The notes under the pieces: generated by a model
Database searches by the model: none
What the model saw: the letters and a program-made list of their open reading frames with translations, nothing else
What the model was told of the DNA's origin: nothing
Part shown: in pieces, positions 6,533 through 44,018 of the stretch
Layout of the letters: each line of letters opens with the position of its first letter
How positions within the stretch are numbered: the first letter of the stretch is position 1
NCBI GenBank assembly: GCA_025057375.1
Contig: JANWWO010000010.1
Location: 1 to 59,241 of the forward strand
Reading direction: 5' to 3'
Source: Candidatus Absconditabacterales bacterium
Lineage (GTDB): Bacteria; Patescibacteriota; Gracilibacteria; Absconditabacterales; Absconditicoccaceae
Length of the DNA: 59,241 nucleotides
Translations under genes and position numbers: made by a program

Positions 6533-6604
6533 TGACCCAGCCAGGAGTCGAACCTGGATCTCAGTCTTCGCAGGACTGTGTCCTATCCATTGAACGACAG
6601 GATC
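6533..6604 (-). tRNA. tRNA-Arg, anticodon GCG
   Basis: A 72-nt cloverleaf: acceptor GATCCTG/CTGGGTC with one T-T mismatch, D stem GTTC/GGAC with A20 in the loop as usual for tRNA-Arg, anticodon stem CAGTC/GACTG, seven-base loop CTGCGAA giving anticodon GCG, T arm CCAGG-TTCGACT-CCTGG, discriminator A, no encoded CCA. Most bacteria use ACG, which becomes ICG and reads CGU, CGC and CGA. A GCG anticodon reads only CGC and CGU, leaving CGA unread, as expected if CGA is reassigned. Confidence 0.9.
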
Positions 6605-6630
6605 AAAAAACAACATACAACAAGAATATG

Positions 6631-7047
6631 TTAGACAAGATCAATATGATCTGGTGCATCATCAGATGGATGTTTTGGTTGAACAACCTTAGATTGATCT
6701 TGGTTAAGATGACGCTCAAGATCCTCATTTACTCACGAAAAAAAAAGAGCTAAATCTGCTACTTTTGCACTTCACTGCTTAAAAAGATAATAGTACCTTG
6801 ATAACTCAGATACCACATTAGCAAGATCTCAATGTTTTTTGGTACTAGTGAGAACTGACTCTTTGAGAATGGCATTTTGTGCACGCAATTCATCATTTTC
6901 TTTGTGCAACTGTGTCACTTGTGATGTCAATGTAGCATTTGTTTCTCTCAATGACAGGACAATTCCTCTATCTTGAAACCTAAAATAAAAGAATGCATAT
7001 CAACATCATAGTCCAAGAAAAAACGAAAGCATTATTCGAGCAACCAT
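6631..7047 (-). CDS. Small membrane-anchored coiled-coil protein
   Basis: 138 residues, four TGA codons read as Gly. The N-terminal helix is MVARIMLSFFLGLGCGYAFF. A heptad-rich stretch follows (about residues 32-66: SLRETNATLTSQVTQLHKEN...), then a mixed C-terminal region ending DAPDHIDLV. The architecture resembles small CPR envelope or divisome spacers. No family is recognised. It lies 26 bp upstream of the tRNA-Arg gene and 70 bp downstream of HU on the same strand. Confidence 0.65.
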
Positions 7048-7117
7048 GAAGAGACAACATGATACAAAAAAAAACGGATATGCAAAACATGTTTCCATAC
7101 CCGCTTAAAAAAAATAG

Positions 7118-7402
7118 TTATTTAGACTTTCTTACTGCAGCTTTAAATTCACTTCCTACCTTAAATGTAGCAACATTCATTGCTGGGATTTTGATTTTTT
7201 GTGAAGGATTTTGTGGATTTACACCTGTTTTTGCTTCTCTTCTACTTCTAGCAAATGTCCCAAATCCTTGGATTCTTACTGCATCACCTTTTGCAACTGA
7301 ATCAACAACAACACTAATAAAACCATTAAGCATGTCAGATGCAGCTTTTTTTGAAACATTAAGCATTTGAGCTAATTTAGCAATAAGTTCAGTTTTGTTC
7401 AT
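7118..7402 (-). CDS. HU/IHF-family DNA-binding protein
   Basis: 94 residues, the usual HU length. The sequence starts MNKTELIAKLAQ, has the dimerisation helices and the GFGTF turn (IQGFGTFARSRR), and a minor-groove arm region around NPQNPSQKIKIPA. All arginines in the arm are AGA codons. It bends and compacts DNA as a dimer. The longer reading from 7444 adds a hydrophobic leader not found in HU, so the ATG at 7402 is chosen. No TGA codon is used in this small abundant protein. Confidence 0.95.
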   Translation of the reverse strand: MNKTELIAKLAQMLNVSKKAASDMLNGFISVVVDSVAKGDAVRIQGFGTFARSRREAKTGVNPQNPSQKIKIPAMNVATFKVGSEFKAAVRKSK

Positions 7403-7771
7403 GGAAATAAGAAAAAAAGAAATAAAAAAAATACCAGCATTCAACAGTGGGTTTATAGCTATTTTTTTTTATTTTGCAAGAGAATATAAGGAAAATCAAC
7501 GACAATCGTCCATTACTTAAGACAAAAAAAATCCTAAAAAAAACGCTAAAACAAGGTGATACCTATAAAAAAATACAAGACAAATCCATAGAAAAACGAT
7601 AGCAACTATTGTACTTTTGACCAGCTAATCATACTTTTTTTCTATCATACAAAAGACATTTTCCAAATTTATGAATAAATAAAACATCTAGCTAAATTCA
7701 TAACAACAATTAAAAATAATGCTACATATATTAATAATATATATTAACAAATAAACCGATACAAACCACTA
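7403..7771. other. AT-rich intergenic region upstream of HU
   Basis: 369 bases with many T/A runs and no open frame of note on either strand. It must hold the HU promoter (minus) and the end of the PriA-like transcript. No strong hairpin terminator was seen. Confidence 0.6.
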
Positions 7772-8449
7772 TTACATAACACAGTCAACAGTCCATCACC
7801 ATGAGGCACAGAGCAACGCCTCATGGACAGGATCAATCCATGGAGATCTTCTACGAACATAATACTCATTCCGTGGATAATAAACAACAATATGACGAAC
7901 CCACCACCAATCACGAAACAAGCCTGCACCCGTTGTCAGAATAATAGATTTCTTACCTGCACATAGTTCTTTATAGACGGTTCCCTGGGTAGATTCAGAC
8001 AACGATGGCGTCAACACAACACAGGCAGGGTGATGAACCAAATCTCCCATAACAGAATACATAATCCATTGATTGGGAAATAAAAGAAGCTGTTGTCAAG
8101 AATACTCAGAGCATACAAAAGGTTTTCCCTCGAAATCAGTAATATGATTACACGATTGAAGAGACTTTGGGAGACGATGTAATGATGATAACTTTTTTGT
8201 TTTTTTATCATCAATCAATCCTACAATATCATCAACCGAAGAAGGATAATGAAACAACGAAAAAAGTGACACAAACGAAGTATACCAACGGAAAACCATT
8301 CCTACCATCCAATCAATAGTATGAGAAGATACAAGACGACCCAGTACATGCCACTGATCATCCGCCTCACGACACTCACCACCAAAACGAGCCAGACGTT
8401 TATCATCTCAGAGCACAAGCCACACTGTCACACCATGACATAAAACCAT
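7772..8449 (-). CDS. PriA-like (primosomal protein N') fragment, uncertain
   Basis: 225 residues, TGA=Gly. The order of segments resembles the N-terminal half and first helicase motifs of bacterial PriA: a DNA-binding-like region (HVLGRLVSSHTIDWMVGMV), a hydrophobic segment GQQLLLFPNQWIM, then CAGKKSIILTTGAGLF, which parallels the 'G...IviGtRSAlF' part, and HIVVYYPRNEYYVRRRSPW, which parallels the motif with the exposed Tyr-Lys and P-x-Y. A clear Walker A is not visible and the C-terminal half is absent. It may be a reduced CPR-specific homologue or a truncated gene. ATG 8449 is the first in-frame start. Confidence 0.4.
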
Positions 8450-8691
8450 TCACTGTACCAATTTCGTCTTGCAATTACTTAAAAAAAGTATATTATCACG
8501 TCAATTTTTGACGCCTATTTGTACACAATACATTCCCTATAGATATAATAAAAAACGCCTATCGTGAAGAATATACATACATCACAATTTTCTTCGCATA
8601 GTATACATCTTTTTTCTATTTTCACTTCATATATTCTTTATATTAATTATTCTTTTTCTTTATATTAATGGTTCTTTATACTAATAATCAT

Positions 8692-9930
8692 ATGTCATCA
8701 CTTCTTTGTTGCCTTGCTCCGATGGACTGATTTACTGATGCAGCATGTCGTTCAATATTTTTTCGCATACGAAAACAATACGGAAATCACACAAAAACGC
8801 AATATAAAATGCGAACAGAATTTATGAATGCAGATGGGTATCTCAGACAACCCTCGAGAATTGTCCATCATCTCCTTTCATGCTCCGACACACCTTACCC
8901 TATTGTCCAAATTTACGGAGGGAACAGAGAAACACTTGTAGAGGCGTGTCATGATATCTGTCGCAAGTACCCTTTTTTTCCAGGGATTGAGCTCAATATT
9001 TGATGCCCGTCTCCAAGCGTCATGAGCTGTGAGGCGGGAGCTGGGATGATGAAAGATAAAGCCAAGACGCTGGAAACAGTAAAACAGATGAGCGAAGCAT
9101 GTGCTACATATGGGATGCCCTTTTCTATCAAAACCAGACTTGGACTGACGAGCAATGATAAACAAGATCAAATCGATTTTATCCATCGTGCAGTTCCTTA
9201 TTGTTCGATGATTTCTGTGCATGCCAGGACATTCAAACAGGGACATAGTGGAGACGTCGATCGAGAGACCCTATATCAAATCAAAGAGCACTTTGGTGAT
9301 ACAATAACCTTGATCGGTAATGGTGGCATCACCTCACGAGACGATATGCGATCCAAAGCAAAAAATCTGGATGGTATAATGATCGCCCAAGCTGCGATTG
9401 CCAATCCTTGGATTTTTACTCCCCATATCCCAACCCCACAGGACAGATACGATATCATCAAAGATCATTTTCTTTTGATGCTTGGGCAAGAACACTGGAT
9501 GAATGAACAAAAAAAAATCTTGACCGACGACCCCACAAGCGTTTTGATGATGCCTTCAACAGATGAATTGCGTTCACGTTGAGTTGCCGTCAAACAATCG
9601 TATGCTGACCAAAAACTTTTTTCTGTCCTCGAATATCGTAAGCATCTCTTTGGGTATCTCAAAACACTGGTATGAGCAAAAGATCTCAAAGTCAAACTTG
9701 CAACCATCACTGATCCAAATCACGTCAGCGATGCACTTGATGAGTTTTTTTGCAAATTGAGCGTCATAGAAATGAATCTGTCTAATCGTTGAGAATCACC
9801 TATCAAAAAAATACTGCATCGTTCTACGAACCTATCCCACACGCAATATAGCAATCAAAAGCATCCACATCACTTCCGTATACATCTCCATGAAAGCTCA
9901 TCTTATACAGAAACAGACACCTCATTATAG
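8692..9930 (+). CDS. dus: tRNA-dihydrouridine synthase
   Basis: 412 residues. N-terminal FMN-binding motif CCLAPMDGFTDAACRS (Gly of MDG is TGA), then MNADGYL, QIYGGNRE, the active-site LNIGCPSPSV, KTRLGL, the phosphate-binding SVHARTFKQGHSGD, and TLIGNGGITS...DGIMIAQAAIANPWIF. It reduces specific uridines in tRNA with NAD(P)H via FMN. The usual MIgRG motif reads MIAQA, so a common Arg is missing. The C-terminus runs about 80 residues past the usual end. CGA at 9262 lies in GDVD-CGA-ETL, where Dus proteins have ADW, supporting Trp. The start is the ATG that places LAPMDG at the usual distance. Confidence 0.9.
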
Positions 9931-9985
9931 CAAAATTATAGCAAACATTATCATCTTTCATACTTTTTACTTTCTCTCTCACTGC

Positions 9986-12900
9986 ATGAACCAACAACCC
10001 ACTGCGCCACAAACACCGTCACACACACGTCCTTCCATAGTCTCATTACCGAAACGATGATATATTGGCATTGGTTTGGTCATGATGCTCATCATATGAT
10101 TGTGAATCTGGCGAATGATGAGACCTTCACCATTTGAGTTGGTGAGTTTTTCTCATGTATCAAATTCTCCCATCCTTCTGAGTTCCAACCCCACCTTGAC
10201 GTTTAGTTTTTCGCATCATCTTAGTAATCCTGATGCTATCATCATCGAACCAAGCAATGCGGTGAGCGTTTCTCATCAATGATCACATCTCACCATGACC
10301 CTAAACGATATTGTCCTCAGAGACGCTCAATCGCTGACAATCACCTTCCCCACGACGCTCAAAGACACAGCGGGACGTCACCTTAGTCAGGATCTTGTTT
10401 TTTTCTATTCTGTTTTTGATTTTCTTGAAGTAACCAATATCCCAAGTACACCTTTGGCAATTTGACAGGCACGAACTGTCACGTTTTCTCATCCTGTCCC
10501 AGACAATACTTGCCCTATCTCATTCCAGCCCACGATCCAGTGAAAATGCAAAAAAACATCTGCTTTTTCGTATAGTTTTGAGCCTTTGTGGATTGGTCAT
10601 GATTCGTATTCCTACACTATTTGATTTGATACGCAGACGACAGGAACGATACCAGCAACGCTTCCGACACAACCCACGATCACAACCAGTGACTCTGCTA
10701 TTGTCATCTCACTACCCACTGAGCTCGATAGTCAGACTATTCATAATAATCTTTCTGTGACGTCAGGAAGTACGCCTGTCGCATTTACTGTCTCAAGCGA
10801 AAATAATCTAGTCCATACACTTGCCCTCACTGATGTCACACCATGAACACAAGTCACGGTCACACTCAATGAAATTCCACTTGGTAATGGTAATGAGGTA
10901 ATGCCGTGAGTCTCCTCCTCATTACCAACGCCCTCATTGATTCAGACAATCAAACAAGATAGAGACTGACGAGGCTGGATGGAAGAATTGTGTGTGACGA
11001 GCAACCTTCGTCAACGTCAATCAACACAAGACGAACAGTACCAGCAATCATATACCTACTCTGATTTCTGTTCGACTGATTTGATCATTGATAGACCTCT
11101 TACTATCCAGATACATCCCAGTAACATCACAGATATTGTCCTCTCTGATGGTTCCAAAACGTATTGGAAAAGTAGTGATATCCAAGAAACAATGATGATT
11201 CCTCTTCAATCTATAAACATCTCACAAGCAACCAAACTATCAATCTCTTTGGTTGCAAACGGAAAAATAGTTCAAACAATCAATCTTCCAATTACACCAC
11301 AAAAAGCACACATCACTACAGTTGAAAATGTCAACGACATGGTTTGTTTGTATAGTTCCCATAGACTTCGTCGTGATTACCGTCATCAATCATTGACGGT
11401 GATATTTTCCAATCCAAAACACACTACACAAACTGATTTTGGATATGAATGATGCCCATCCAAAGATTGACTCGTGTGATACCTAATCCAAACCAAAATG
11501 CGACCTAATACTGATTATAGTGTTTCGTTTTCTTGAACAGTTAAAACAGAATTGGGGTATTCTGTACAGATCCCAACGAAAAAACTGTCTCTTACCTCGC
11601 CATGATTACAAGACTCTGACCGCAGTGTTTCTCGAAATTATCCTTATACCAGCACCTTCCCATCACACCAAGATCTCCGTGTTCGTTGGACAGCGACCAA
11701 TAGTACAGAAAGTTGGGTTCATTATTGTATCAAAGAATTTGATCCAAATCGACAACGTTCATGGGATTGATATCAATTTTGAGAAAGCAATGATCCATGT
11801 AAAAACCCTGTTTCTGTCCGTATCTCCTCCTCATGAGCACAAGAACCAAATTGGCACAAACCAATGTTACACAGCTTTGTAATCACAACTGATAAACGAA
11901 AGTGACTGACCAATCCAGAAATTTGGGTGACAGTTTCATTAAAAGAAACACGAAAAAGCACTGACCAATGGTCACGTTTTGTTCCCACCTCATTGTCAGT
12001 ATTTGTGGAAGCAAACAGTAATCAAACACTTTGGTTCGTAACAGATTGGGAAGGGAATCCAGCCACCAATCTCAATATTCGTGATGCAAAAACCAATGAA
12101 CCAATCACGCTCACACCCAAAAAACAATGAGTCCGAACATCTGGACCATTAGCAAATCTTTGGCAATCACCCTTTATTATCTCAGCAGACCAAGGCAACA
12201 CCATACTTGATGGCAATACGCATACCATGGATCAATGGCAACTTAATTTGTGACGAAGTCCTGATACAAGCTATGAAGATACCTTTGTGTATATATATAC
12301 TGATAGGCCACTCTATAAACCCAATGATGAAATATTTGTCAAATGAATTGCTCGTGCCTACTGACCCAAAGGTTATACACTCCTGCCCAAAGGAACACGC
12401 GGGACTTTGTCATTGATACACAAAGCTTGAGATGGTGAACCAATTTGGCAATGACAAATAACGCTTGATACTCTTAGCTCTTTTTCTTCTCGTATTCGTC
12501 TAAACAACGCAAAACATGGAAAATATATGTGGGAATTGACACTAAATGAACGTAATGAATCAAGAATGCGTGTTGGACCAAGTTATGTCCACATTACTGA
12601 CTATGTCAAACCAAACTTTGAAGTGACGACAACGCTTCCATCGCAATTGATAGGACATCAAACGCTCAATCTCACCTGATTTGCTCGTTTTTACCATGGA
12701 CTCAATCTTACCAACGCTCCCGTCTCTATCAATGTCATTCGTCAAGAAATAGACTTTTTGCCCAAAGGTTATGATGAGTATAGTTTTGGTGATCCAAGCA
12801 GATATTGGTATTGCTGGGCGTGGCAATGATGTGCCAATGATCCTGATTTTGTGCCATGATTTGAAATGCTAACAACAAGAACCAATACAAACGGTCAATT

Positions 12901-15900
12901 CAGTCAGCGTTTGGATCTTTCTCAGACCAATCCTGCAACTGGAAAAATCTATCTCTATGGCGTTTCTGCAAGTGTCACAGATCCGTTTAATGGTGAAACC
13001 GTCATAGGAAATGCAGAAACAATAGTTTATCCAAGTACCACGTTTTTTGGGATCAAAGCACCACGATGGGTGGAGGGTTCCAGAGTGTCGTTTTCTGCTA
13101 TCGCATTGGATACAAACCACAAACCAAAACCAAATACTACAATAACTGCCCAGCTTGCACGCACACGATGAACTTACGGTTACAAACAGTCACTGGATGG
13201 TAATCGATATTATAGTTGGGATATCAAAACAGAAGTCGTCCAAACAGAAAAACTCACAACCAATGATCAATGAACCATCTCTCACGCGTTTACCTTGCCA
13301 GCCAATGGAGACGAATGGAGCATCACGCTTTCTGATCCAAATAATCCACAAACACCTGTGACAAGTCATCGCTTTTGGCGTTGGACCAATAATAATCAGA
13401 CGTTTTCCAACACATCTGTCATCGAGCTCATCACTGACAAAAAAGCGTACAAACCATGAGATACCGCCCAGATTTCGCTTCGTGCACCGATTGACAAAGG
13501 AGCTCTTCTTGTTTTGATCCAAAGGGATGAGGAAATTCTTGATCAATGGGTAGAACCATTGACACAATTTGGGCATCAAATCAAACTCCCAATAAAAAAC
13601 ACCTACTGACCCAATGTGTACGTTAAGATTGCCTTGATCGGAACAGATAAAGATCTAGACTATCCCATCTACAGACGATGAGCAACCAATCTCAAAATCG
13701 ACAGTAGTGACAAACGTCTCACCGTCACTGTCTCTACTGACAAACAAACATATAAACCTAAAGATACTATTCAGACAACAATTCGTGTGACCAATACCCA
13801 ATGACAACCAGTTGCCAATGCTGATGTGTCTGTTGCTATCGTGGATATGTCTCTCCTTGCGCTCAAAGGAAATCCCAAAAAAAATCCCTACGCCTTTTTC
13901 TGGAACGTTGCCAGACCATTGAACACAATGACATTGCGGTCAGTGACGAATCTTTTGGATGCTAATATTTTACTTTCGCAAGATGATGGAGAAAAAGGTG
14001 GTGATGGCATTTTGGGCGAGGTAGACCCAAACAGAGTCAGATGAGATTTCCGTGATACTGCACGATGGCAAGCGTCAGCAACAACCAATGCTCAAGGCAT
14101 TTTGACTATTACTACCCCTCCCCTACCCGACAATCTCACCCAACGACAAATCGAAGCAATCGTCCATACGAATCAAACACAGCTTGGAGCTGGCTACCAC
14201 GTTTTCTTTTCCAAACAAGATATTAGCGTGATCGACAATCTTCCAAACATTTTCGTCAGTGCAGATAATCTCGTGATCCAACCGAGCATCATCAATAGCA
14301 CAAACAAACCCAAAACTTTGACGATTGAGTTTTCTGGCTACAACCTCCAAGCACTAGGTGATGTGACCCAAACAGTAACAGTCCCTGCAAACGACCGTAC
14401 GACCCTTTCTTTTCCTGTGAAAATTCGCCGTCTCACGACACATGAACCTGCTCGATCTCGTGTCCAATTTCTTGTAAAAGAATGAAAGAATGTCATTGAC
14501 GCAGTCCAGAGAGACATTCCCCTGCTCCCTCATCACGCTGCCCTCACGAGAAATCACAATGGCAATGCTCAGTCGCTGGATGTCACTACACCATCACATC
14601 ACTGATTTACGCAGATCACTGTCTCGACCAACCCTCTCGCCTCCATCATGCACCTCATTCGTAGTAACGAAGTCAACATTTATGGTTGTTTGGAACAAAA
14701 ATCATCGGCAGTCTTTCCTCATTTTGTCCGTGCAAGAATCCTCAAAGCATGGTGAAAAGGAGCATACTTTTCCTTTGATCCCAAAGACGAATCCAGCACC
14801 ACCAGACTCAGTTATAACGAAACCAAGAAGATTCAAGATTTTTTCAATAACCTTGGACAATACCAACAAGAAGACGGATGAATGATCTACTGGCTTGAAT
14901 ATGAGTCTGAAAGTGATCTCAGACTCTCAGCGTTGGTCAAATCATTGATCAGACAAGGAAAAGAGCTAGGATTTACCATCACCTGAATCGATACCAAAAA
15001 ACTTGATAACTATCTTATTACGACATGGAAAAATATTAGCACTGATTGAAATTATTGAACTACATGGTCAGCACGATCGCCTCGTTTTGATGCTCGTGTT
15101 GTTTGAGAGCTTATGATCCTTGATCCATCCCTTGTCCACAGTGCACTTCCCAAAACAATCTCATCACCAGACGATCTCATGCGACGATTGGCAAGTAAAC
15201 CCAAGGATAGTAAAACAGCGATTTCTCTCATCAACCAATGACTTGAATCCAATGATTATTGGTACAGAGGAATCTGGGCATCACAGGTTTTAGGATATCT
15301 TGCACAAAATACTACACTATGGAATGAAACACGCGTAATCCATAGCAAGCTTATGAATATGATTCTCTCAGATACCAAAGATCCACTCAACCGATCAACG
15401 TGGATGATTACCGAACTCCTTCTTCATCTCGAACCATACATCATCAAACTCGCACAAGAAAATACTCAGTCAGCATTTTTTTCTCTCAATGGAAAACGTT
15501 ACGAATTGGGAACAGGCACTCGAGGAAAAGAATTGACGATGAGTCTTCCTTGGACCAAAACATGAGAACAATTGCGTTTTGATTTTGGAGACAAAGGAAA
15601 ACTCTATTACCTCGTCCAAATGACTCAGTATGTCGAACCACTGAGTCTCAAACCCATTGTCCGTGGCTATGCAATTGAGCAAACCTATTACAATTACGCA
15701 GATATTATGGCACGATATCGCAAAACTCCCGAAAATCTCCAAACACTGGAACGTTTGAAACAAGATATTACACCATTGACAGGCACCATTATCCAAGGAA
15801 CACGTGTTGCAATTTTGACTCATATTTCCAATCCAGCAAACGAACGTCGTCATGTCGCTTTGGATAGTTTCATTCCTTGATGATTTGTCTTGTCCAATCC

Positions 15901-16195
15901 TAAATTTGTAACATCAGAAAAAATCCCTGATATCTTGTGTAAAAGACTTTTTGGTCAAGAACAAAATCGATGGTATGCTAATCCATGTCAGCCATGGAAT
16001 GTGACAGAATACCACGATAGCAAGTTCTTTGCTTACAATGCATATCTCAATGCAGGAGAATACTTTTTCTTAACCCTTGCGACCGCACGTCACCCATGAA
16101 CCTTTGTCATCAAACCAGCTACTGTCTTCTCTTTTTACGAACCGCAACAACGTGGACAAACACAAGGTCAAACCATTACTATCAAAGCAAAATAA
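9986..16195 (+). CDS. Membrane-anchored alpha-2-macroglobulin with thioester motif
   Basis: A single 2,069-residue frame in TGA=Gly, the longest in the window. A cytoplasmic N-terminus is followed by one membrane helix (about residues 26-43, YIGIGLVMMLIIGLGIW) instead of a lipobox. Many beta-rich MG domains follow, including YIYTDRPLYKPNDEIF near residue 770 and TDKKAYKPGDTAQISLR near 1150. A low-complexity bait-like stretch (about 1315-1355) precedes FRDTA-x-W and LPDNLT near 1381. The thioester motif GCLEQ is at residue 1568, then an alpha-alpha toroid-like region. Bacterial A2Ms trap proteases at the cell surface or periplasm. No pbpC partner is adjacent. CGA at 14144 (LTQ-CGA) occupies the Trp of the family's LTxW motif. 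Confidence 0.9.
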
Positions 16196-16283
16196 CATTC
16201 GGTCTTGTAATGAAAAAAAAAAGTAAATATACTTTATAATTCCAACACACATAAGAGATTATTTTAGACAACTATACAACTCT

Positions 16284-17936: not shown

Positions 17937-17970
17937 TCATTGCGTACACTTTTAGTTCCTTCATCTCACT

Positions 17971-18515: not shown

Positions 18516-18998
18516 CTACAACGGTTGCAACAAAATATACTGATGTGCCCTTCTCAACACGTCTCTCATTGCAGGATAAGTCAATAAGTTAATCGCTTGG
18601 GCAAAATCAGCCCACACATAAACACCCATATATCATTCTCCATTGATCAAGCAGACATCATGACATGAACCCAAATACTTCATCAAAAAAAATTTTGTAT
18701 CCTTTTCGACATGAATATAGGTATCAAAAGTAGATCTCAGCTGGACCAATCAGGCAAATGTCTCAATCACTAAAAATTCTCTCGACAATCATGTTTCCTC
18801 TCCTACTTCCCTCAATGCTGCCTGCTCTGGTGTTTCTCATGGTTCCAATTTACCCTTGGGACAAACTCGTTCGATTTTTTTTGATTTTGCTTGTCTTTTT
18901 ATGAGAAGATACTTTGGTTGATGATTATCCATAATATACACAACTCATCACGCACTCTGGACGACCGGTTTGGTTTTCCTTTTTTTTCATCTACTCAT
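18516..18998 (-). CDS. NUDIX hydrolase
   Basis: 160 residues. The complete NUDIX box G-x5-E-x7-REVGEETGL is present (GKLEPGETPEQAALREVG onward; the Gly before the first Glu is TGA). The fold starts VVQSAGGVVYI and LLIKRQAKSKKIE. The codon before VCPKGK is CGA (18867-18869), at the Trp of the NUDIX WxxPKG signature. It should hydrolyse a nucleoside diphosphate derivative. ATG 18998 is chosen because it keeps the SAGGVVY strand. No other start lies closer without losing it. Confidence 0.9.
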
Positions 18999-28294: not shown

Positions 28295-30809
28295 ATGCAA
28301 CAAATATGACTACTTCTCAGCACATTTTTGCTTCTGATACCAATCATTTCGTATGCATCTGATTGGACAATTGATCCATGATTTACAGCAAATCCATGAG
28401 CTGAATGATCTCCACGTCGCATTCGTTCCCTCGCATCAGATACGCAAGGATACATCATTATCGGTGGAGATTTTTTTCGCTACAATGGCATAGCCAATAC
28501 CTGAATTATCAAGATTGATGCACAAGGAACAGTCCTCTCCTGATTTCTTGTATGAGAATGATTTGATAATGTCGTTGAAGTCGTCAAAACAGATAGCCAG
28601 GATCGTATCTATGTTGGAGGAGATTTTTCATCATATCATGGAGAAACAGTCTCTCGCCTAATTCGTCTTCTCCCAGATGGAACACGCGATACGAGTTTCT
28701 CTGTATCAGTCAATAATAGAATTCATTCACTTCTAATTGATGAAACTAACAACCATATCTATATTGGTTGACGATTTTCTCAAGTCCAATGACAACCAAG
28801 AAATAGAATCGCAAGGCTGTTTCTTGACGGCACACTTGATACAAGTTTTGATCCATGAGTATGACCAAATAGTACCGTAAGATGAATCGCATGAGGCCCA
28901 AATAATACAATTTATATTGTTGGAAGGTTTACAACAATTGGAGGCGTATCTCGTTGATGAGTGGCACGTCTTGTATCAGGCTGATCGCTAGATCTCAGCT
29001 TTGATCCATGATCGTGAGTAGCATGATGAGTTCCCAATGTGCACGATATAGCAAGTCTTCCCGATGGCAGTATAGTAATATGAGGAGATTTTGTTACCTA
29101 CCAAGGAGTGCCAGTTAATGGAGCAGTATGGATCAATCCTAATGGTTCAATCAGACATACAATTGTATCATGAGAACCAGTAAGAACATACAATGCGGTC
29201 ATTGTACAACCAGATGAAAGTATCGTTATCTGATGAGAATGATGAATTTTTCTTCGTTTTGATCGTCATGGTATTCGTGATACACCAACAACACAAACAG
29301 CATCATCAATTATCCATTCGCTCATGTACTATCAACCTACCCATTCTCTCTATGGCGGATGAGTTTTCGCAACCCATAATGGCCAGACAAGAAGATGAGT
29401 GACGAGTATTCTCCAGTCGCCAAGACGAGATAGTCGTCCAGATTGATTGGTATTTAACGAAACCTTTGCTACAACTCCATGAATTGTCGAATCTCCATCT
29501 CTCACAGTGGGATGAATCACAACATGAATTACTGTCACGGTCTCTACTTGATGTGAGATATCACTCAATAATGATACTTTTGATACCGGACCTCGCTATC
29601 GGATCCAACACAATGATATAATCAAGATACGCACCATCATACAAGATTACGCTATGCAGAGAGTTTGTGTCATTACATGAGGTCTCACTGTATGAGTACG
29701 AACTTGAATCGTGTGAAGTTTTTTAGATATTATATGGTCATGATGAAGTACCCAACTACTCAATTCCTGACACACTATCATTACATGACGAATACTCGCT
29801 ACATGACAATGGAATATCTCTTCACCAGATAATTGGCAAATAGCAAGTAATTCATGAACTTTTGGTAGTATGGCAAGTGTATCGTCATGAGACATCATCA
29901 TCCTCTCATGACATCTTCTCTGACCAACAATACTTCTCATGACATGAACAACATGATGGCAAACACAACCGTTGACGATATCACTAGCACTTTCTACTCC
30001 CTCTCTCACACCAGTCATATGATCACCATCTACTATCCAACATTCCTGATCTCCATGATGATGATCCGCCCGAAGATTACTTATTGACGACTGTCCAAAA
30101 GGAGATTTTTCACCAAGTTATTATGATAAACGCTGTGATACAACACAAGACTCTATCACTAATGCACTTGATGACACGATACAAACACATACTGATACTC
30201 CTATACAAATACACGTTCAAACGGGGTCATGAGATAATAGCATGCCGGCATGTTGGCAACGTGCTGGCAAGGACGATCAATCAATGCTCCTCGTCTATCA
30301 ATGGCTTATTACTCAATGATTATCGCATACTATTGATGATTTCTGTCCGTATGATCAAATCACAAGAGAGATTGCTGCATCATTGTTGGTTCATATAATC
30401 AATATACAAAATACCATGACACCCTCTATTCATCCACTTCGTTCATGCTTGTATCGTGACTGGATGCAAATAGCTCCAAAGCATCACAATGCTACTCTCC
30501 GTTTGTTTATGTCAATATGGCATCATGGGACAAACAGCTCGAGGAACACCTGATAATTTTTTTAGGCCACAAGACCCTATTACGAGAGCCCAAATTATCA
30601 CTATCCTCTCAAGAATACTCTATGGAAATCGTGGGAACTGGAGCTCGATCAATCAATCATGATGGCGATATGATGGGCATAAAGACCTTTTGACACGTGC
30701 AGGAATTATCACTAATATCAACCCATGACTCCTTGAAAAAAATGAACCACTTTGACGATTCCTTCTCATGATCATAAGAGCAACAATGTACAATAATCAA
30801 CTAAAGTAG
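28295..30809 (+). CDS. Secreted delta-60-repeat beta-propeller protein with SLH-like tail, frameshifted
   Basis: The signal peptide MQQIGLLLSTFLLLIPIISYAS starts at ATG 28295. Repeated blades of about 50 residues carry the delta-60 pattern (SDTQGYIIIGGDF, DGTLDTSFDPG, DLSFDPGSG). A beta-rich middle (ILATGQWNISS) and a Cys-containing region follow. The first frame ends at TAA 30554 (753 residues). From about 30490 the +1 frame encodes a good S-layer-homology domain (YGIMGQTARGTPDNFF, then ITRAQIITILSRIL) down to TAG 30807. Removing one T from CGTTTG near 30510 joins them. The SLH domain would anchor the propeller to the cell wall. Many blade glycines are TGA. Confidence 0.75.
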
Positions 30810-33545: not shown

Positions 33546-33632
33546 GCCTGGGTGGCGGAATTGGCAGACGCGCTAGACTCAAAATCTGGTTCCCGCAAGG
33601 GAGTGAGGGTTCAAGTCCCTCCGCAGGCACCA
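33546..33632 (+). tRNA. tRNA-Leu, anticodon CAA
   Basis: An 87-nt class II tRNA with a long variable arm (TTCCCGCAAGGGAGT), acceptor GCCTGGG/CGCAGGC, anticodon loop CTCAAAA giving CAA (reads UUG), T arm GAGGG-TTCAAGT-CCCTC and an encoded CCA end at 33630-33632, unlike the tRNA-Arg in this window. Confidence 0.95.
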
Positions 33633-33671
33633 CAACATAAGCATATCATTACAAAAAAATACCATACATAG

Positions 33672-33697
33672 TCATCACGTATCGTGATGATTTTTTA
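33672..33697 (+). terminator. Rho-independent terminator after tRNA-Leu
   Basis: Perfect 8-bp stem TCATCACG-TAT-CGTGATGA followed by TTTTTTA, 39 bp after the tRNA end. Confidence 0.85.
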
Positions 33698-33779
33698 TTT
33701 TATATTTTATACTTGCAAGTTGTCTTTTTTTCACTATATTACAATGTACTGAGTTATTTTAGTGACACTTATCATACAC

Positions 33780-35087: not shown

Positions 35088-35130
35088 GAATATGATATAG
35101 AAAAATACCACATAATACCTCTCATCCACA

Positions 35131-36057
35131 CTATTTTCATGACCCAAGAGAGATATTGCTCTCATGTTTTTTGTTTTCATTGAGGCGACTATTATGCACA
35201 TGCCACCGCACGAGACCAATCGTACACAGCAGCACAATACCTGCTTGGTGTCATCGATGCAATCACACCAAACGAACACCAAAAGAGATAGGAATAAAAA
35301 GGATCAAAACGATAGATCCTAAATCATACCTATCACCAGGAACATCCATAAAACGGAGCAAGAGACGGAGACAGATCACCATCCCATACAATACACAAAA
35401 AAGAACCGTTCCACCAACCAATCAGCCCATCAATACAACAATCAACCATATCAATCACAAACCTCGTTGCATCGAGGTAATGAGCGAGTGTCGTCCGCGC
35501 TCCGATCGTGTACCAATTCTTTCTACGATAGGCTCAATGATAGCCTGCGTCAACACAACGGGAGTAGTAAATGACGCCAAACGAAGATGAGGCATATACG
35601 TTGGTCCAGGATCAAGAAATCATGTGTTGATAAGCAATAATGATCTTGTCACAACAAACAACGCTTGATTTCCATCATCTCCCAACCAATTTGTAGGTTG
35701 TGGATCAGGGCGTGTATCAAGGACAAAAAGGAGCGAAGGAAGAGATCAGGTCATCATAGAAGGCTTATAGATACGGATGATAGACGTCGCATCAACTCAC
35801 TGATCAGATATCGTCAATGAAAATCATGATAATTGGGACCTCACTTGCGATGCAAGATCATCAATTTGTGCAAGATACTGATTCATCGCATCCGCAACAG
35901 GTTTCGATGTGATTAGTCACCACAAAAATATCCCTCTCACTACAAAAAGGATACAAACAAAACTGACCAACAGTCATCGTTTTTGTCGTCAAGAAAAGGT
36001 CTGTGAGACAATCCTATGACCAAGATGCTGCCAAAAAGATGAAGAAGAAATCGGCAT
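35131..36057 (-). CDS. Integral membrane protein, unknown
   Basis: 308 residues: a basic N-terminus, membrane helix 1 near residues 27-48 (LLVSFVCILFVVRGIFLW), an extracytoplasmic domain with a regular mixed fold (about 50-190), then four helices (LIWLIVVLMGGLVGGTVLF, SIVLILFIPISFGVRL, AGIVLLCTIGLVRW). The layout recalls DUF1189-type proteins but I cannot confirm it. Convergent with tyrS. Confidence 0.6.
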
Positions 36058-36089
36058 ATCACAACGAAAGATAAAACTACAAGGACTAT

Positions 36090-37650
36090 ATAATAATAAA
36101 GAAAAATTGCAAGAGGAATACGATCATCATCCGTATCTACAATGTGTATTCCACGTTTTCATCAAAAGAAAAAATGAAAACCCACAGATATAGCTTGGTA
36201 GAGAAGGAGGGATGATATAGATCAAGACCGATTAGCCATAGATGATACTATAAGACAATACCATACGCAAAACAACACTAATCTAGATCAATAAAATGTG
36301 AAGAAGATAGACTCAGGCATATGTATGTCGTGGGAAAATCATGATCAGGCAAAACGAAATTTATGTAATCATTGATGATCTCTGATATGCACAAAGGGAC
36401 ATGATTTGCAGTGATCGATCCTCATGGTGACTTGATGGATGAGGTGATGGTTTATATTTCCGTCCATCGTCGTGATGATGTAATTATCTTTGATCCAAGT
36501 GATGCAGAATTTCCTTTTTGTCTCAATTCTATCGCTTCTCGTCCTGATGATAGCAAACAAGTTCTTGCAAAATGATTAATTGATATGTTCAAAAAGTTTT
36601 TTTCATCCAATTGGGATAGCCAACTGAAACATATGCTCAGGATAACGTTTTTGGCTTTGTTAGACTATCCAAACGCAACACTCTTTGATATCGTTCGTGC
36701 TTTGACGGACAAAGATTTTTGTTATGGACTGATCAAGCATATAATGCCAATGTGGTTCGTAATTTCTGAACCAGCGAATTTGCTGGCCGGTCCCAACAAT
36801 TCAATACCCAAGTAATTATCCCGATTTTGAATAAAGTATGACACGTATTGTCGATTGATTTGCTCAACAATATGTTTGGAAACCCAGAAAATAATCTTGA
36901 TTTTCGTGATACAATGAATAGTGGCAACATTATTTTGATCACGCTCTCAAAAGGGGAACGCCAAGAAGAAATCGTGGCGTTCCTCGGCGCGATGTTTGTC
37001 ACCAAAATGTATCAAACTGCAATGGGTCGTTAAAATGTCCAAAAATCAGAACGTTACTCATTGTTTCTTTATGTAGACGAATTCCACAACTTTGCCACTA
37101 ATACTTTTGGGGAAATCCTTTCAAAAGCAAGAACATACTGACTGGATATGATTGTTGCTCATCAGTTTCTCAAACACATATCACCATCTCTGTCAAACAC
37201 TCTTTTTTGAAATACAGAAACGCTGATTATTGTCAGAATTTCTAGTGATGATACCATCAATCTTGCCAACAATGTTGAGCCATGAGTGAGTACCTCTACG
37301 ACCTTGCACATTTTAATATGAGAGCATTGTATTGCAACATGATGGTCAAAAGACAGGTAAAAGATACATTTTCTCTCAAATCGCTCTACACCCCCGATGC
37401 ACATATCGATCCTGATCACTGTCAAACAATCATCGACCTTTCTCGCACAAAATACAATCATCCATTGGCACAAGTCAAAGCAGAGGTCCAACAAAACAAG
37501 CAGATGTTGTCTCCGCGATTGAAGCGTTTGCAAAGCCGTTGTTGTAAAAAATGCATATTCGCCACTTTTTCTGATGTGGAGAATGCGCTCATCATGTATC
37601 TTATCCAAAAAATAAAGCAGATTCACTATATCTCAAGCATACAAAACTAA
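36090..37650 (+). pseudogene. Decayed type IV secretion / conjugation DNA-pump ATPase (VirB4/TraD-like, DUF87)
   Basis: Clear family motifs are spread over broken frames. Frame one has EEDRLRHMYVVGKSGSGKT (Walker A) interrupted by TAA at 36366, then IDPHGDLMDEVM, FDPSDAEFPFCLNSI and MFKKFFSSNWDSQLKHML. A shift near 36745 leads to QVIIPILNKVGHVLS, GNIILITLSKGERQEE, a TAA at 37031, LFLYVDEFHNFATNTFGEIL (Walker B) and MIVAHQFLKHISPSL. A further frame has LSRTKYNHPLAQVKAEV, the usual C-terminal motif. Upstream to about 36090 are weaker remnants. At least two TAA codons and two shifts rule out a working protein. Confidence 0.8.
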
Positions 37651-38174
37651 CTATTTTTGATTATATAAAAAAGATGAACACAAATATCATGTATATGTTC
37701 AAACAAGCAAAACTTAAAACAATTGTGTTTATTATAGTACATTGGGGATGAATGTGTTATGCGTGAAACGCAATTCATCCGATCATGTGCGTATAGCAAA
37801 AAATTGAAGTATACTAAATTACAAGTCAATGTAGAGATAGTATTCGTATTCGATACAGTGCAGTCTATCACTAAACGTTTTTGATTTCCCCTTGCATTTT
37901 CTCACCATTTCTCTATACAACCAACATGATTTTCTTCCTACCCGTTATCAACAACAATAATAAAAATAACACCTCCGCCTGGTAGGTCGTTTGGTGGTAT
38001 ACAAAAAACCTTTCAAACTCTCTACCATATCATGATGGCTAGAGATTTTTTGTAAAAAAACAACCCCTGACACTCTTGGAGTTTGGGCTTGAGATCTTGG
38101 AGAAAATATATAAAAGTGTAAGTGTGGATTTTTAGTTTTTTATTTATAAATCATAAGTCATTTTTTACCATATA
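37651..38174. other. AT-rich intergenic stretch with hairpins
   Basis: No gene seen. Around 37748-37782 an imperfect long hairpin (GATGAAT/ATTCATC outer stem, TGCG/CGCA inner stem, TGAA loop) can form. At 37976-38000 ACCGCC...GGTGGT could pair weakly. These precede a terminator-like hairpin at 38019-38051, so a small untranslated transcript is possible. Confidence 0.35.
38019..38051 (+). terminator. Terminator-like hairpin
   Basis: Stem TCTCTACCAT / ATGGCTAGAGA (one bulged C) with a short loop and six T residues after it. No intact protein gene ends upstream, so it may close the decayed ATPase transcript or a small RNA. Confidence 0.6.
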
Positions 38175-38584
38175 ATGAACTGACATTATGAGATGCGTGA
38201 GATATTTTTTGCACAATACCTGAAATGTAAAAAATATTTTATTTCTTTTGACAATGTTGAAAATGTACAAATACGAATCAAAGAAACACTCAAATATATA
38301 GAAAACAATAAAAAAAGCGAGTCATAAGAAATGATAACCAATTCATAGGGATGATAGCAGTTGATTATTAATATATTAAAACCTGAAATAAGACTATGGA
38401 TCAGTAACAACAGCAATGAAAATGATACTGATTCTCTGCTATAAAATTTATACAATCATTACATCCCAATCAAACACTTATATATACTGCTGATGCTGAT
38501 AATAATGCAAGCATACAACTCATTCAAAAAGCTTGATGAATATTGCTATCAACTGATAAAGAATACATATACTCACTAAATTAA
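38175..38584 (+). pseudogene. GNAT acetyltransferase relic
   Basis: ATG 38175 opens a 50-residue frame (REIFFAQYLKCKKYFISF, then IKETLKYIENN) that stops at TAA. Later pieces in shifting frames read ILKPEIRLWIS and GYGFSAIKFIQSLHPNQTLI, then ADADNNASIQLIQKAGGILL, which together follow the GNAT order (acceptor strand, KPE-R-WI, G-x-G-Y-G acetyl-CoA loop, D-N-x-S-x-x-L-x-x-K-x-G). Several TAA/TAG stops interrupt it. The assignment is moderate because the pieces are short. Confidence 0.5.
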
Positions 38585-38624
38585 TAGATATTTTTTTTCT
38601 TTTTTATTTTTCCCCCTACCACCC

Positions 38625-39926
38625 ATGTCTCACACCCTCATTTCTAAAATTTCCGCTGACCATGTGGGTCACACCATCACCGTCAAATGACGAGTACAAA
38701 CCATCAGATCATCAGGAAAGGTCTCGTTTATCGAACTTCGTGATGGATCTGGCTATATGCAATGTGTCATCGAAGCAAAAAACTTTGATGAAAGCAGATT
38801 TACCGAAGTCTCTACCATCGGTCTCGAATCGTCGCTCTCCCTCACGTGAACCGTCTCCAAACACCCAAAAAAGGATGAGTACGAGCTTCAAGTCAGTGAT
38901 TTTTTTATCTATCAAAATACCAAAGATTATCCCTTGGGGACTAAAGCCGATCACGGTCCAGAGTTTTTGTTTGACCACAGACATCTCTACCTCCGTTCCA
39001 AGACCCAAAGAGCCATTCAACGCGTCCGTGACACCATTATCCACGCAACCTATGACCGAATGCGTGACAATGGTTTCACCAAAATTGATGCACCAATCTT
39101 CACACCCAATGCCTGTGAAGGCACAACCGAGCTGTATAGCGTCGAACACGTCAACGGTGAAACCATGTATCTGAGTCAATCAGGACAGCTGTATATCGAA
39201 GCTGCAATGTATAGCGTAGGACGTTGTTTCGATTTTGGACCGGTTTTTCGCGCTGAGAAAAGCAAGACCCGCCGTCACCTCAATGAATTTTGGATGATGG
39301 ACGCAGAAATCCCCTTCATCCAGCAGGAAGAAAATATGCAAATCCAAGAAGATTTGCTCAAGTACATCATTAGACAAGTCTTGGAAAAAAATCACACTGA
39401 TTTCGTGACATTAGAAAGAGATGTGACACCACTTATGAATATCGTAGATAAACCATGGGAAAGAATAAAACATGTTGATTTTGTTGATGAATTGATCGCT
39501 AAAGGGTTTGATGTCAAACAAGGTGATGATATTGGATCAGATATTGAAATGCAATATATGTCCATGGTAGATACACCTATCTTCCTCACTCATTTCCCGA
39601 TGGGTATCAAAGCATTTTATACCAAAGAAGATCCCAACATGCCAGGCTATGGATTATGTAGTGACCTCCTTGCACCAGAAGGCTGTGGAGAAGTGATTGG
39701 AAGTTCGACGAGAGATGACAACTATGACGTTTTATTACAAAAAATTAAAGATCATAAACTTGATCCTGCAACTTTTGACCGGTATCTTGATCTAAGAAAA
39801 TATGGTTCTGTGCCACATGCAGGATTTTGATATGGATTGGAGAGATTGGTAAGATGGTTTTGTGGACTACACCATATCAGAGAAACTATCCCTTTCCCAA
39901 GATACGCAAATAGAATTAGACCATAA
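38625..39926 (+). CDS. asnS: Asparaginyl-tRNA synthetase
   Basis: 433 residues. The N-terminal OB fold ([20 protein letters not shown], first Gly from TGA) is followed by class II motifs: [53 protein letters not shown] (motif 2) and [12 protein letters not shown] (motif 3, with Gly from TGA). The [10 protein letters not shown] string and CEGTT mark AsnRS rather than AspRS. It attaches Asn to tRNA-Asn. CGA at the YD-x-M position replaces a residue that is aromatic in relatives. The mrr gene follows after 29 bp. Confidence 0.93.
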
Positions 39927-39955
39927 TTTTTGTTTTTTTTCTTTTCATATATATA

Positions 39956-40858
39956 ATGGATCAACTTCCCAAGTATCACGACACATTTTTCCCCATTTTG
40001 CAGACACTCGCAAAAAAAGAAACAATGCATCAAAGAGATCTTAGAATTGCTGTCCGCGATCAATATTACTCCAATCTTTCACAAGAGCTTCTTGATCAAA
40101 CGACGAGTACATGAGCAAACACATTGCTTGATCGCATTGGACGAGGAATGTACATTCTCAAGATAGCAAAGCTTGTTCATCAACCAACAAGATGAATGTT
40201 TGCAATTACACCAAAAGGGAAGGAAATAATAGAGAAAAAATGATCATTTACGTTGCAAGATTTGTACAATGACACAGACTATCAAGCACATCAACAGGAA
40301 CAAAAGTGAAAAAAACTAACGAATCAAGAAAACTCAACTGAAGAAGAAGTAAAAAATTCATCTCCTCAAGATTTGATGGAAATATGATACACAAACATCA
40401 TGAATCAATTAAAAAATGATCTACTGGATAAACTAAAAACAATTGATCCATATTATTTTGAACAGATTGTTCTCACACTCTTACACCGCATGTGATATGG
40501 AGATATGATCGAAACCAAAAAATCTAGTGATGGCTGAATTGATGGAATTATCAATGAAGATGCATTATGACTAGAAAAGATTTATATCCAAACAAAAAGA
40601 TACACTGACAAACACGTTCGTGAACTAGAAATTCGCAATTTTATTGGTGCAATGGCATGAAGAACACAAAAAGGCGTATTTGTGACGACGAGTAGCTTTG
40701 AAGCCAAAGTCTATGAAAGAGTAAAAGAACTATGATCTACTATTATTCTGATCGATGGATTACGTTTGGTCGATTTGATGGTTCAGTACGGTGTTGGGGT
40801 CCAAGTACGTCAGACATACGAAATCAAAGTTATTGACGAGGATTTTTTCTTGTGATAA
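39956..40858 (+). CDS. mrr: Mrr-type (type IV) restriction endonuclease
   Basis: 300 residues. The N-terminal winged-helix domain reads LLDRIG-x-GMYILKIAKLV then RGMFAITPKGKEII, where x is CGA (40142-40144) at the position of the near-invariant Trp of Mrr_N (R-x-x-W-A). After a charged linker the catalytic domain has FEQIVLTLLHRMGYG, SSDGGIDGII and KIYIQTKRY, giving the D-x(n)-Q-x-K nuclease core. Such enzymes cut methylated or foreign DNA. No methyltransferase partner lies next to it, consistent with a modification-dependent enzyme. Confidence 0.9.
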
Positions 40859-40911
40859 CAATATAGCTCCCTATATTCACCATCAGATTTATTCGTTCTG
40901 TTATCCCCATA

Positions 40912-41211
40912 ATGCCCAAACCTCTCATCACCCAAGACGATTTCCAAAAAATCGATATCAGAACCGGGACGATTATTGAGATACAATTATTTCCTGAAGC
41001 TCACAAACCTGCCTACAAACTCACGATTGATTTTGGTCCTGCGATTGTGATCAAACGCTCATCAGTACAGATCATAACCTATTACACACCACAAACCCTC
41101 CTAACCCTCCTACATAAACAAATCATTGCTATCATCAAATTTCCACACAAACAGATTGGGAAGTGTCTGTCTAAATGTGTAGGTCTCGGAATCTATGATG
41201 CTAATAGATAA
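40912..41211 (+). CDS. csaA: CsaA-like tRNA-binding protein, C-terminus cut by in-frame TAA
   Basis: 99 residues of a normally ~110-residue family: FQKIDIRTGTIIEIQLFPEA, KLTIDFGPAIVIKRSSVQI and KCVGLGIYDANR. After TAA 41212 the same frame continues MLLLTPDKEGTHCDNV, which matches the family's C-terminal 'vvLltPD..vpnG' segment that helps dimerise. So the gene appears to have acquired a nonsense codon about ten residues before its end, or the stop is read through. CsaA binds tRNA and has chaperone activity. Confidence 0.8.
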   Translation: MPKPLITQDDFQKIDIRTGTIIEIQLFPEAHKPAYKLTIDFGPAIVIKRSSVQIITYYTPQTLLTLLHKQIIAIIKFPHKQIGKCLSKCVGLGIYDANR

Positions 41212-41339
41212 ATGTTATTGCTCACACCTGATAAGGAAGGGACGCACTGCGATAATGTAAGTGCTTTATCTTGATTTTTTGGTGAGAAATCAATACGCTC
41301 GTCATATAAATTTTTTATTTTCATTTCCCATACTTATTT

Positions 41340-44018
41340 ATGCATCGTACTTCTTCCCCTCATGCAATTGATCTCGCATCATGCTATGCACAATTCAAAA
41401 GCTCTGAAATATGACTATCTACTCACGATGCTCAGCAAAGATTGAAGGTCTATGGACCCAATGAACTCCCTCGTGATCAAGGAATACATCCGATCATAAT
41501 GTTCCTCCATCAATTTCACAACCCACTGGTCTATATCCTCATCATTATTGGACTAGGTTCCGCATGGATGGGAAAACGAATCGATGCCATCGTCATCGCT
41601 GGTGTCGTCTGTACCAATGCACTTATCGGTGCAATCCAAGAGTACAAAGCACAAAGATCCATCAACGCATTGTCATCTCTCGTAGTCCCCATAGCCAAAG
41701 TAGTCAGGCAATGACAACTTCTACAGATTCCTGCTCGTGATCTTGTCCCTGGTGATATCATCGTCATGGAAGAGGGAGACTCTATCCCTGCTGATGCAAG
41801 ACTCATATCTGTGAAGAATTTTTCTACGATCGAAGCCTCCTTGACTGGAGAGACAGCCAGTATCAACAAATCGATCGAACAACTCAAAGAAAGTACTGGG
41901 TTGGCAGATCGTAGCAATATGGTATGGATGGGGACCTTTGTCGCGCGTGGGACAGCTCGTGCCTTGGTAACTGCTACAGGAATTCATACAACCATCGGAA
42001 TGATTGCAAAAACGATGAACAGTATACAAACGAGCGAATCCAATTTTGAAAGAAAAATCCATGGTCTGACCAAAAATATCGCCCTACTTGCACTAGGAGC
42101 GTCCTTGCTTACTGCAGGAATAGGATGGATCAAATGATTTGATCGAATAGAATTGATTAGTCTCTCGATTGCCTCTCTCATCAGCGGGATACCCGAATGA
42201 TTACCTGCTATCCTGACACTGGTTCTCGCTATCGGAGCCAAAGCAATGTCTGATCAGCGTGCGATTGTCCGTACCTTGACTGCTACTGAGACCTTGGGTG
42301 CCGTATCTGTTATTTGTACAGATAAGACTGGTACGCTGACATACAATACCATGACGGTCAAACATATCCGACTACCTGACATACCACACATCTATGTCCG
42401 TGGAGCAGGACGATCCTCTACAGGAGGATGCGAACAAGACTGAAAAGCAATAAAACGAGATCACATACCACGCCACTCCTCTCTTATCCATGCGTGTGCA
42501 CTAGCAACAACTGCCGTTGTCAACAATGAATGAGATGAGTACACCATCATCGGAGACCCTACCGAAGCAGCACTTGTCGTGCTAGCAAATAAAGCACATG
42601 TCAATAAGCAATCACTTGCATCTACGCATACGATGCTGGATGATATGCCGTTCAATAGTGACCTAAAAATGAGAGCAACACTCGTTCGTCTCTCAGACAA
42701 TTCTCGTATTCTCTATGTCATCGGTGCGAGTGAAATCGTATGGTGACGTGCCACACAAGTACATGGCGAAAATATTCGTGACAAGAATTCGTCAGACCAG
42801 TCGTTTTTTGCTGATCATATCCAGCAATGAACAAGTGAAGCAATGAGACTTCTGGGTATAGCATACAAAAAAATAAACACTGACACAATTGACGAAGCAG
42901 ACTTACATGATCTGGTCTGGATGGGAATGGTAGGCATCCTCGATCCTATCAGGGCAGAGGTCCCCGATGCAATTGCACAATGTAGACAGGCAGGAATGAG
43001 AGTTATCATGCTAACAGGAGATCACAAACAGACTGCTATCGCTATTGGAAAACGTATCGGACTCATCGATGAGGAACATCCAACAGCATATACCGAAGAA
43101 GAACTTGCACATCTACCACCAGAAGATTTTAATGAACTTCTCAAACACTGTAATATTTTTGCTCGTTGTACCCCTCAGCGTAAATTACTCATCCTCGAAC
43201 TTCTCCAATCACAAGGGCATATCGTAGCTATGACAGGAGATGGTGTCAATGATGCTCCTGCGCTCAAAAAAGCACATGTAGGTATTGCAATGGGGAAAAT
43301 AGGAACTGATGTAGCTCGTGAAGCAGCACAAATCGTACTCGCTGATGATAACTTTGCGACTATTGTCTCCGCGATCAAACATGGAAGAATCATCTATAAC
43401 AATGTCAGGAAAAGTGCCAATCTTGCACTTAACAGAATTATTGCTGGCGTGGGATGTATTGGGTGAGTAATGCTCCTAGGTGATACCATGCCCTTTATTG
43501 GAATACAACTGCTATGGCTCAATCTCGTCACCGAAACTATCACGGGTATTGGACTAGCATTTGAATGATCTGAAGGAAATGAACTGCAAGGTAAACCAGT
43601 TATGCTCGATGCAGGATTAATTTCTCGTGAAACATTACCATTTATTCTACGAAATGCACTCCTGATGATCATATTGACAACAGGAACCTATCGATACTAT
43701 ACCCAGTATACCGATGTGAGTGCTGCCTATGCAACAACCTTAGCATTTGTGGTTTTATATTTAACGCAGTTTGCAAACTTACTCAATCTCAGATCATTTA
43801 CGCAGTCATTGTTTCGTCTGTGATTATGGTCAAATCCAGTAATCATCATCGGCATCATCTGATCAATAGCACTCCAAGCACTGGCAATCTATCGACCAGT
43901 ATTGCAATCAGCACTCCAATTTACTGCCATATCAGCAACAGATCTTGCACGAATGGTAGTAATTGCATCAGGTGTATGGATAGGAGGTGAATTATACAAA
44001 CTGATAAGAAGCACATAA
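41340..44018 (+). CDS. P-type cation ATPase (type II, calcium-pump-like)
   Basis: 892 residues. N-terminal cation-ATPase domain (YGPNELPRDQGIHPI), TM1-2, actuator loop SLTGETAS, TM4 ISGIPEGLPAILTL (two Gly from TGA), phosphorylation site ICTDKTGTLT, nucleotide domain, hinge MTGDGVNDAPALKKAHVG, and TM5-10 with LWLNLVTETITGIGLAFEG. PEGLP and the NLVT helix indicate a Ca2+- or Na+/K+-type pump rather than a heavy-metal pump. CGA at 41577 lies in K-CGA-IDAIVI, where relatives have W-x-DA-x-VI. Ten or more glycines are TGA. Confidence 0.92.

Follow-up and report, generated by a model that had tools for sequence, protein, structure and literature searches.

The genetic code of the Absconditabacteria, which we take to be NCBI translation table 37, is the closest described counterpart of the code examined here. 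The text drawn on from Shulgina and Eddy 2021 (PMC8629427) reports CGA and CGG as tryptophan codons in the order Absconditabacterales, served by the same tRNAs as those described below, and the tryptophan meaning is restated in a 2026 paper, also drawn on in part (PMC13092985). In the former, CGA stays below 37 per 10,000 Pfam-aligned codons in all of its species and the CGA/CGG change is placed at an earlier stage, with one species more advanced (CGA 30, CGG 24, UGG 35). The DNA analyzed here (the window, 59,241 nucleotides) is contig 1 of a draft genome of a Candidatus Absconditabacterales bacterium (GCA_025057375.1), which is 1.13 Mb in 21 contigs and 97% complete. Judged from sequence, the code used by this genome is almost certainly one in which TGA encodes glycine, CGA and CGG encode tryptophan, and arginine is encoded by AGA, AGG, CGU, and CGC. 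The original prediction, made from the letters of the window, had proposed that CGA is reassigned from arginine to tryptophan, as reported for the order together with CGG. The report is indeed present in PMC8629427, and the proposal for this genome is borne out. CGA and CGG are assigned to tryptophan here because of homology, codon exchange within the order, and tRNA identity bases.

In addition to the window, 20 stretches of 20 kb were sampled from the same genome. The guanine-cytosine content of the sampled stretches is 0.387, slightly over the range of 0.26 to 0.38 given for the four clades of PMC8629427 in the text used. The sampled frames contain 1,237 CGA or CGG codons among 140,475 codons, a set in which some frames are surely not genes. 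Both codons were masked as X in the frames before comparison with standard-code proteins. The targets of the final run were two standard-code genomes, the first from the same class, and stretches of E. coli, four of them added for this run; non-overlapping frames were kept and an rRNA-like stretch was removed. This run matched 92 of 427 frames and gave 119 gene-to-best-hit pairs.

In the filtered run, CGA stands opposite tryptophan in 28 and opposite arginine in 10 of 161 columns. CGG, which has fewer sites, stands opposite tryptophan in three of 21 columns and never opposite arginine. The remaining arginine codons show the reverse pattern, with arginine and tryptophan counts of 291 and 2 of 614 for AGA, 166 and 1 of 535 for CGT, 32 and 1 of 145 for CGC, and 66 and 1 of 134 for AGG. 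TGG columns hold 60 tryptophans and five arginines of 194. The tryptophan excess at CGA was measured against the columns of codons that are neither arginine nor tryptophan codons, where tryptophan occurs in 136 of 28,878 (Fisher p = 9e-34). The CGA columns come from 135 distinct sites, with tryptophan in some target at 22 and arginine at 10, and most of the rows with arginine at CGA appear loosely aligned.

Several of the tryptophan sites at CGA lie in sharp motifs. These are found in a superoxide dismutase (DVWEHAYYLKF, plus two further sites), a RecQ-type helicase (SHWGHDFRPEY), and ClpB (VAKWTGIPV), with families assigned by Pfam, and in a protein taken for IleRS (LTNWYIRRSRRR). Going by their alignment with solved relatives, the best sites in the window are the CGA at 38691 and the CGG at 39780 of the asparaginyl-tRNA synthetase (AsnRS) gene, both absent from the list in the original prediction. 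A homology-free signal is also present across 300 genes, in which CGA density climbs as TGG density does (z = 8.3) but shows no rise with the density of the other arginine codons (z = −1.5).

Codon exchange was followed within the order, which in the genome collection is a single GTDB family of 49 genomes. The comparison covers 15 sampled genomes in 371 between-genus pairs, which are not independent of each other. CGA (n = 440) is opposite TGG 149 times, CGA 51 times, CGG six times, and the four other arginine codons 10 times; in this genome the arginine matches are 3 of 223. TGG (n = 986) is opposite CGA 144 times and the four other arginine codons seven times. AGA (n = 2558) is opposite other arginine codons 1384 times, CGA seven times, and TGG three times. 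CGG (n = 56) is opposite TGG 19 times and opposite no arginine codon. Together with the filtered columns and the sites in AsnRS and tryptophanyl-tRNA synthetase (TrpRS), this extends the tryptophan meaning to CGG.

The TrpRS alignment has an invariant tryptophan position represented by 38 rows, with TGG in 28 and CGA or CGG in 10. All 10 of the latter come from Absconditabacterales, and the TrpRS gene of this genome has CGG at the position. Three more CGA codons of the order fall in columns that are neither tryptophan nor arginine. Rows from the TGA-as-glycine families f14 and f22 and from standard-code genomes have CGA or CGG in three mostly arginine columns, among other places.

Not all observations point toward tryptophan at CGA. 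A CGA codon in a P-type ATPase (41577), listed as a tryptophan signature in the original prediction, does not lie in any tryptophan column of the relatives shown, so this site is not supported as a tryptophan signature; the three alignments shown are constructs of one Listeria Ca-ATPase, and where aligned, none of the nine CGA codons of the gene is opposite arginine. CGA density is also correlated with CGC density (rho 0.41) across the 300 genes, which is read as an effect of base composition. An unfiltered first comparison with fewer targets (all frames against one same-class genome and one E. coli stretch) gave 13 tryptophans and 14 arginines in 96 CGA columns; it was discarded, as many of the arginine cases lay in rRNA or antisense frames. 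After filtering, arginine at CGA is still 6.2% compared with 3.3% at unrelated codons (p = 0.07), and the tryptophan share at CGA is 17%, lower than the 31% at TGG. Finally, a wider and looser within-order run of 20 genomes gave summed rows of 232 TGG and 19 other arginine codons opposite CGA, and 49 and three, respectively, opposite CGG. The arginine share at CGA is higher in this run than in the 15-genome run, with counts for this genome of 79 TGG and six arginine.

These values bear on an ambiguous decoding of CGA, mostly as tryptophan and partly as arginine, through mischarging or near-cognate reading. The slight arginine excess and the 19 arginine rows of the looser run are in its favor, as are the sites that the original prediction had itself called ambiguous, among them a CGG in a TSP1-like motif, and the text used from PMC8629427 states that ambiguity is not directly visible from sequence. 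Given the arginine excess and the lower tryptophan share, a small arginine component at CGA is compatible with the standard-code test. Within the order, the other arginine codons account for 10 of the 440 positions opposite CGA, and for 3 of 223 in this genome, compared with 7 of 986 opposite TGG. With these counts, partial arginine decoding is considered very improbable.

The arginine-box tRNAs found in the genome have the anticodons GCG, UCG, CCG, UCU, and CCU. An ACG tRNA, which the original prediction had named as possible contrary evidence, was not present among 39 distinct tRNA predictions from this draft genome. The original prediction had matched the reassignment to a tRNA-Arg with a GCG anticodon in the window. 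This gene is confirmed on the minus strand, and it explains why CGA need not be arginine; the positive evidence comes instead from the UCG and CCG tRNAs, which are of tryptophan type. The GCG, UCU, and CCU tRNAs all carry A20 and A73, the combination given as the rule for arginine tRNAs in the text used from PMC8629427. The UCG and CCG tRNAs, located on contigs 5 and 11, carry T20 and the tryptophan discriminator base G73, as does the tRNA-Trp with the CCA anticodon. They are best read as tRNA-Trp because the arginine base A20 is missing and G73 is present. The search proposed in the original prediction for a tRNA-Trp with either anticodon has thus yielded both. On the origin of the UCG tRNA, its arms point in different directions. 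Its anticodon arm is nearer to that of standard Arg-UCG tRNAs (0.73) than to tRNA-Trp (0.54), whereas its acceptor and T arms are nearer to tRNA-Trp (0.69) than to standard Arg-UCG (0.55).

One TrpRS was found in the genome. This single enzyme would charge the CCA, UCG, and CCG tRNAs, all of which have C35 and G73. Arginyl-tRNA synthetase would reject the UCG and CCG tRNAs for want of A20, and these two tRNAs would then decode CGA and CGG on the ribosome. In another genome of the order (G133), two TrpRS genes are present, on separate branches of the TrpRS tree.

The UCG and CCG tRNAs could in principle keep CGA and CGG as arginine codons, with the tryptophan matches arising by chance or from bad alignment. 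ARAGORN does label both tRNAs as arginine from the anticodon, including the contig 5 gene, a UCG tRNA-Arg being the other contrary finding named in the original prediction; yet this gene has G73 and lacks A20. The near-equal arginine and tryptophan counts of the unfiltered comparison would also suit retained arginine. The identity bases, the filtered columns for CGA set beside those for AGA, and the 149 TGG against 10 arginine codons within the order are all contrary to it. Moreover, the same homology method does detect arginine at CGA in related genomes that read TGA as glycine. In family f14, G024 has arginine in 4 of 10 CGA columns, and in family f22 the values are 17 of 35 in G096 and 8 of 19 in G066, with no tryptophan in any of the three. 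Two further genomes, G051 (f14) and G012 (f12), have zero aligned CGA codons. Retained arginine is therefore given almost no weight. Plain code 25, in which TGA alone is changed and CGA is arginine or unassigned, is still in use for annotating this group and was applied to an Absconditicoccaceae genome in a 2026 mBio paper as far as its text was available (PMC13059738), but it lacks the tryptophan meaning that all of the above evidence supports, its version with CGA as arginine, as in f14 and f22, fails on the 28 tryptophans and 10 arginines at CGA, and it is scarcely credible for this genome.

The order-wide tRNA tally is an automatic parse of distinct genes. It omits a contaminant UCG gene of G138, one truncated gene, a viral gene, and named duplicates, and the tRNA genes of several genomes are known as anticodon arms only, from a pattern listing. 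G73 without A20 is present in 35 of 35 UCG and 19 of 19 CCG genes read. An A1-U72 or G1-U72 pair, a weak tryptophan element according to the text used from PMC8629427, is present in 19 of 19 CCG and 30 of 35 UCG genes. A20 is present in 11 of 11 GCG, UCU, and CCU genes, and G73 in one of five GCG genes. As a control, the UCG tRNAs of two sampled standard-code relatives carry A20 and A73.

Two candidate UCG tRNAs were rejected. The arginine-type UCG tRNA of G138 is on a likely contaminant contig (contig 58) of 6 kb, with frames that contain almost no TGA and a run of five consecutive tRNAs, of which four have an encoded CCA. The second is on a viral contig judged to be an ordinary phage, with nine tRNAs near one end and few in-frame TGA codons in most frames. 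Separately, the pattern typical of the order's UCG tRNA also occurs in records titled Clostridia and Peribacteria, which are perhaps mislabelled or mixed bins.

The reading of TGA as glycine in this genome is sound. TGA columns hold glycine in 407 of 694 cases in the comparison with standard-code proteins. A UCA tRNA of glycine type is present, with G1-C72, C2-G71, G3-C70, and U73. None of the 49 Absconditabacterales genomes has a release factor 2 match above the model cut-off, which 10 of 14 controls do have; a weaker match to the model, taken for release factor 1, is present in 46 of the 49. In the window, the number of frames of at least 150 amino acids is 15 under the standard code and 100 with TGA as glycine. 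The longest of the latter (9890–16195) runs uninterrupted for 2,101 amino acids and contains 38 TGG and 25 CGA codons.

The features of the window are collected in Table 1. The CGA codons in the NUDIX hydrolase and the dihydrouridine synthase (Dus) lie in tryptophan columns, as had been predicted.

Table 1. Features of the window relevant to the reading of CGA and CGG, with the residues found in the relatives shown.
Feature	Position	Strand	Observation
CGA in C-terminal part of RsmB/F-type methyltransferase (NSUN of the original prediction)	4342..4344	+	Outside PF01189 match
tRNA-Arg, anticodon GCG	6533..6604	−	A20 and A73; expected reader of CGU and CGC
CGA in Dus	9262..9264	+	PF01207; Trp in 2/2 solved relatives shown
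CGA in large protein called A2M in the original prediction	14144..14146	+	
CGA preceding VCPKG, NUDIX hydrolase	18867..18869	−	PF00293; Trp in 4/4 solved relatives shown
CGA in GG-x-F motif, the ambiguous delta-60 case of the original prediction	28772..28774	+	
AsnRS gene	38625..39926	+	Two CGA and one CGG codon; PF00152 and PF01336; best solved relative E = 7.2e-113
CGA in AsnRS, G-W-V motif	38691..38693	+	Trp in 4/4 solved relatives shown
CGA in AsnRS	39057..39059	+	F, W, Y, F across 4 solved relatives shown
CGG in AsnRS, W-Y-L-D-L-R motif	39780..39782	+	Trp in 4/4 solved relatives shown
CGA within Mrr N-terminal domain	40142..40144	+	Inside PF14338 (Mrr_N) match
CGA in P-type cation ATPase	41577..41579	+	Opposite Val in 3 alignments shown; neither Trp nor Arg
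CGA in P-type ATPase, residue 373	42456..42458	+	Opposite Trp in 3 alignments shown (one protein)

The use of CGA as a putative tryptophan codon varies across the order. The aligned codons of this genome (n = 43,342) include 380 TGG, 269 CGA, and 29 CGG, so that CGA makes up 40% of tryptophan codons. In small samples, the share is 46% in G058 (51 of 110), 48% in G134 (11 of 23), and 50% in G101 (9 of 18). In G065 and G050 it is 9% and 7% of aligned tryptophan codons, respectively. When all frames are counted, which includes some false genes, CGA exceeds TGG in G112, G147, G125, and G058; TGG is ahead in all four when aligned codons are counted. In G128, CGG (24) exceeds CGA (20) among aligned codons. 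A rebound of CGA as such is not new because one advanced species is already named in the text used from PMC8629427. Its breadth across genera may be new.

Genus g98 is at the other end of this range. Its aligned codons include six CGA and 12 CGG of 28,276 in G139, and zero CGA and three CGG of 5,347 in G138. In the within-order comparison, the CGG codons of the two genomes jointly are opposite TGG eight times and opposite other arginine codons zero times, with some sites common to both. One example is a SecY-like protein (YTRWLTFPLAF), and the remaining CGG codons of g98 are opposite other residues. The CCG tRNA of g98 has G73 and C20. No UCG anticodon was present among the tRNAs read from G139 (36 tRNA matches), and the sole UCG found by pattern in G138 belongs to the contig judged to be contamination. 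With completeness under 90% in G138 and in G139, a UCG gene may have been missed. A single open fork of the TrpRS tree separates g98, g91, and the other 24 rows. The placement of g98 is taken solely from this tree, as no 16S gene was found in G138 or G139. Genus g91 has a UCG tRNA and CGA at 35%.

Taken together, the genera may form a graded series in which CGG appears to be tryptophan and CGA near-vacant in g98, CGA is minor in others, and CGA has rebounded to 40 to 50% in several, including the present genome. If g98 represents an old state, then CGG was reassigned first and CGA captured later, an order of events that we put forward tentatively and as the less probable outcome. The suspicion in the text used from PMC8629427 that CGG is tryptophan in some Gracilibacteria would fit it. 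A later loss in g98 would be the alternative to an old intermediate. With an old state in g98, the genus would represent a present-day intermediate in codon capture, and CGA and CGG would not have been reassigned together. A genus with a nearly empty CGA beside genera where CGA is about half of the tryptophan codons would make the order of the reassignment steps testable.

In bacteria, sense codons very rarely change their meaning. The reassignment in this order is already published, and the present genome is one more well-supported case. CGA is frequent in this genome, so that gene models made under code 11 or code 25 carry wrong residues. A search of the open PMC literature, with subscription journals outside its scope and sources represented by partial text, showed no further paper on the tryptophan meaning in this order.

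Three described systems can be compared with this genome. In Anaerococcus and in a clade of uncultivated Bacilli, according to the text used from PMC8629427, CGG is tryptophan through a CCG tRNA, which resembles the condition of g98. CGA stays arginine in both, presumably through an inosine tRNA, unlike this genome with its lack of a detected ACG tRNA. The Gracilibacteria code (NCBI table 25) shares TGA as glycine with this genome. It differs in that CGA aligns to arginine in the sampled TGA-as-glycine families f14 and f22. The Absconditabacteria code, as presented in the same text of PMC8629427, agrees in the order, in all three reassignments, and in the tRNA logic, with a GCG tRNA for arginine and UCG and CCG tRNAs of tryptophan type. 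The differences are quantitative and are subject to unlike counting methods: CGA is at 62 per 10,000 aligned codons in this genome compared with fewer than 37 in that study, and CGA and CGG together make up 44% of the tryptophan codons here, compared with 61% in its advanced species.

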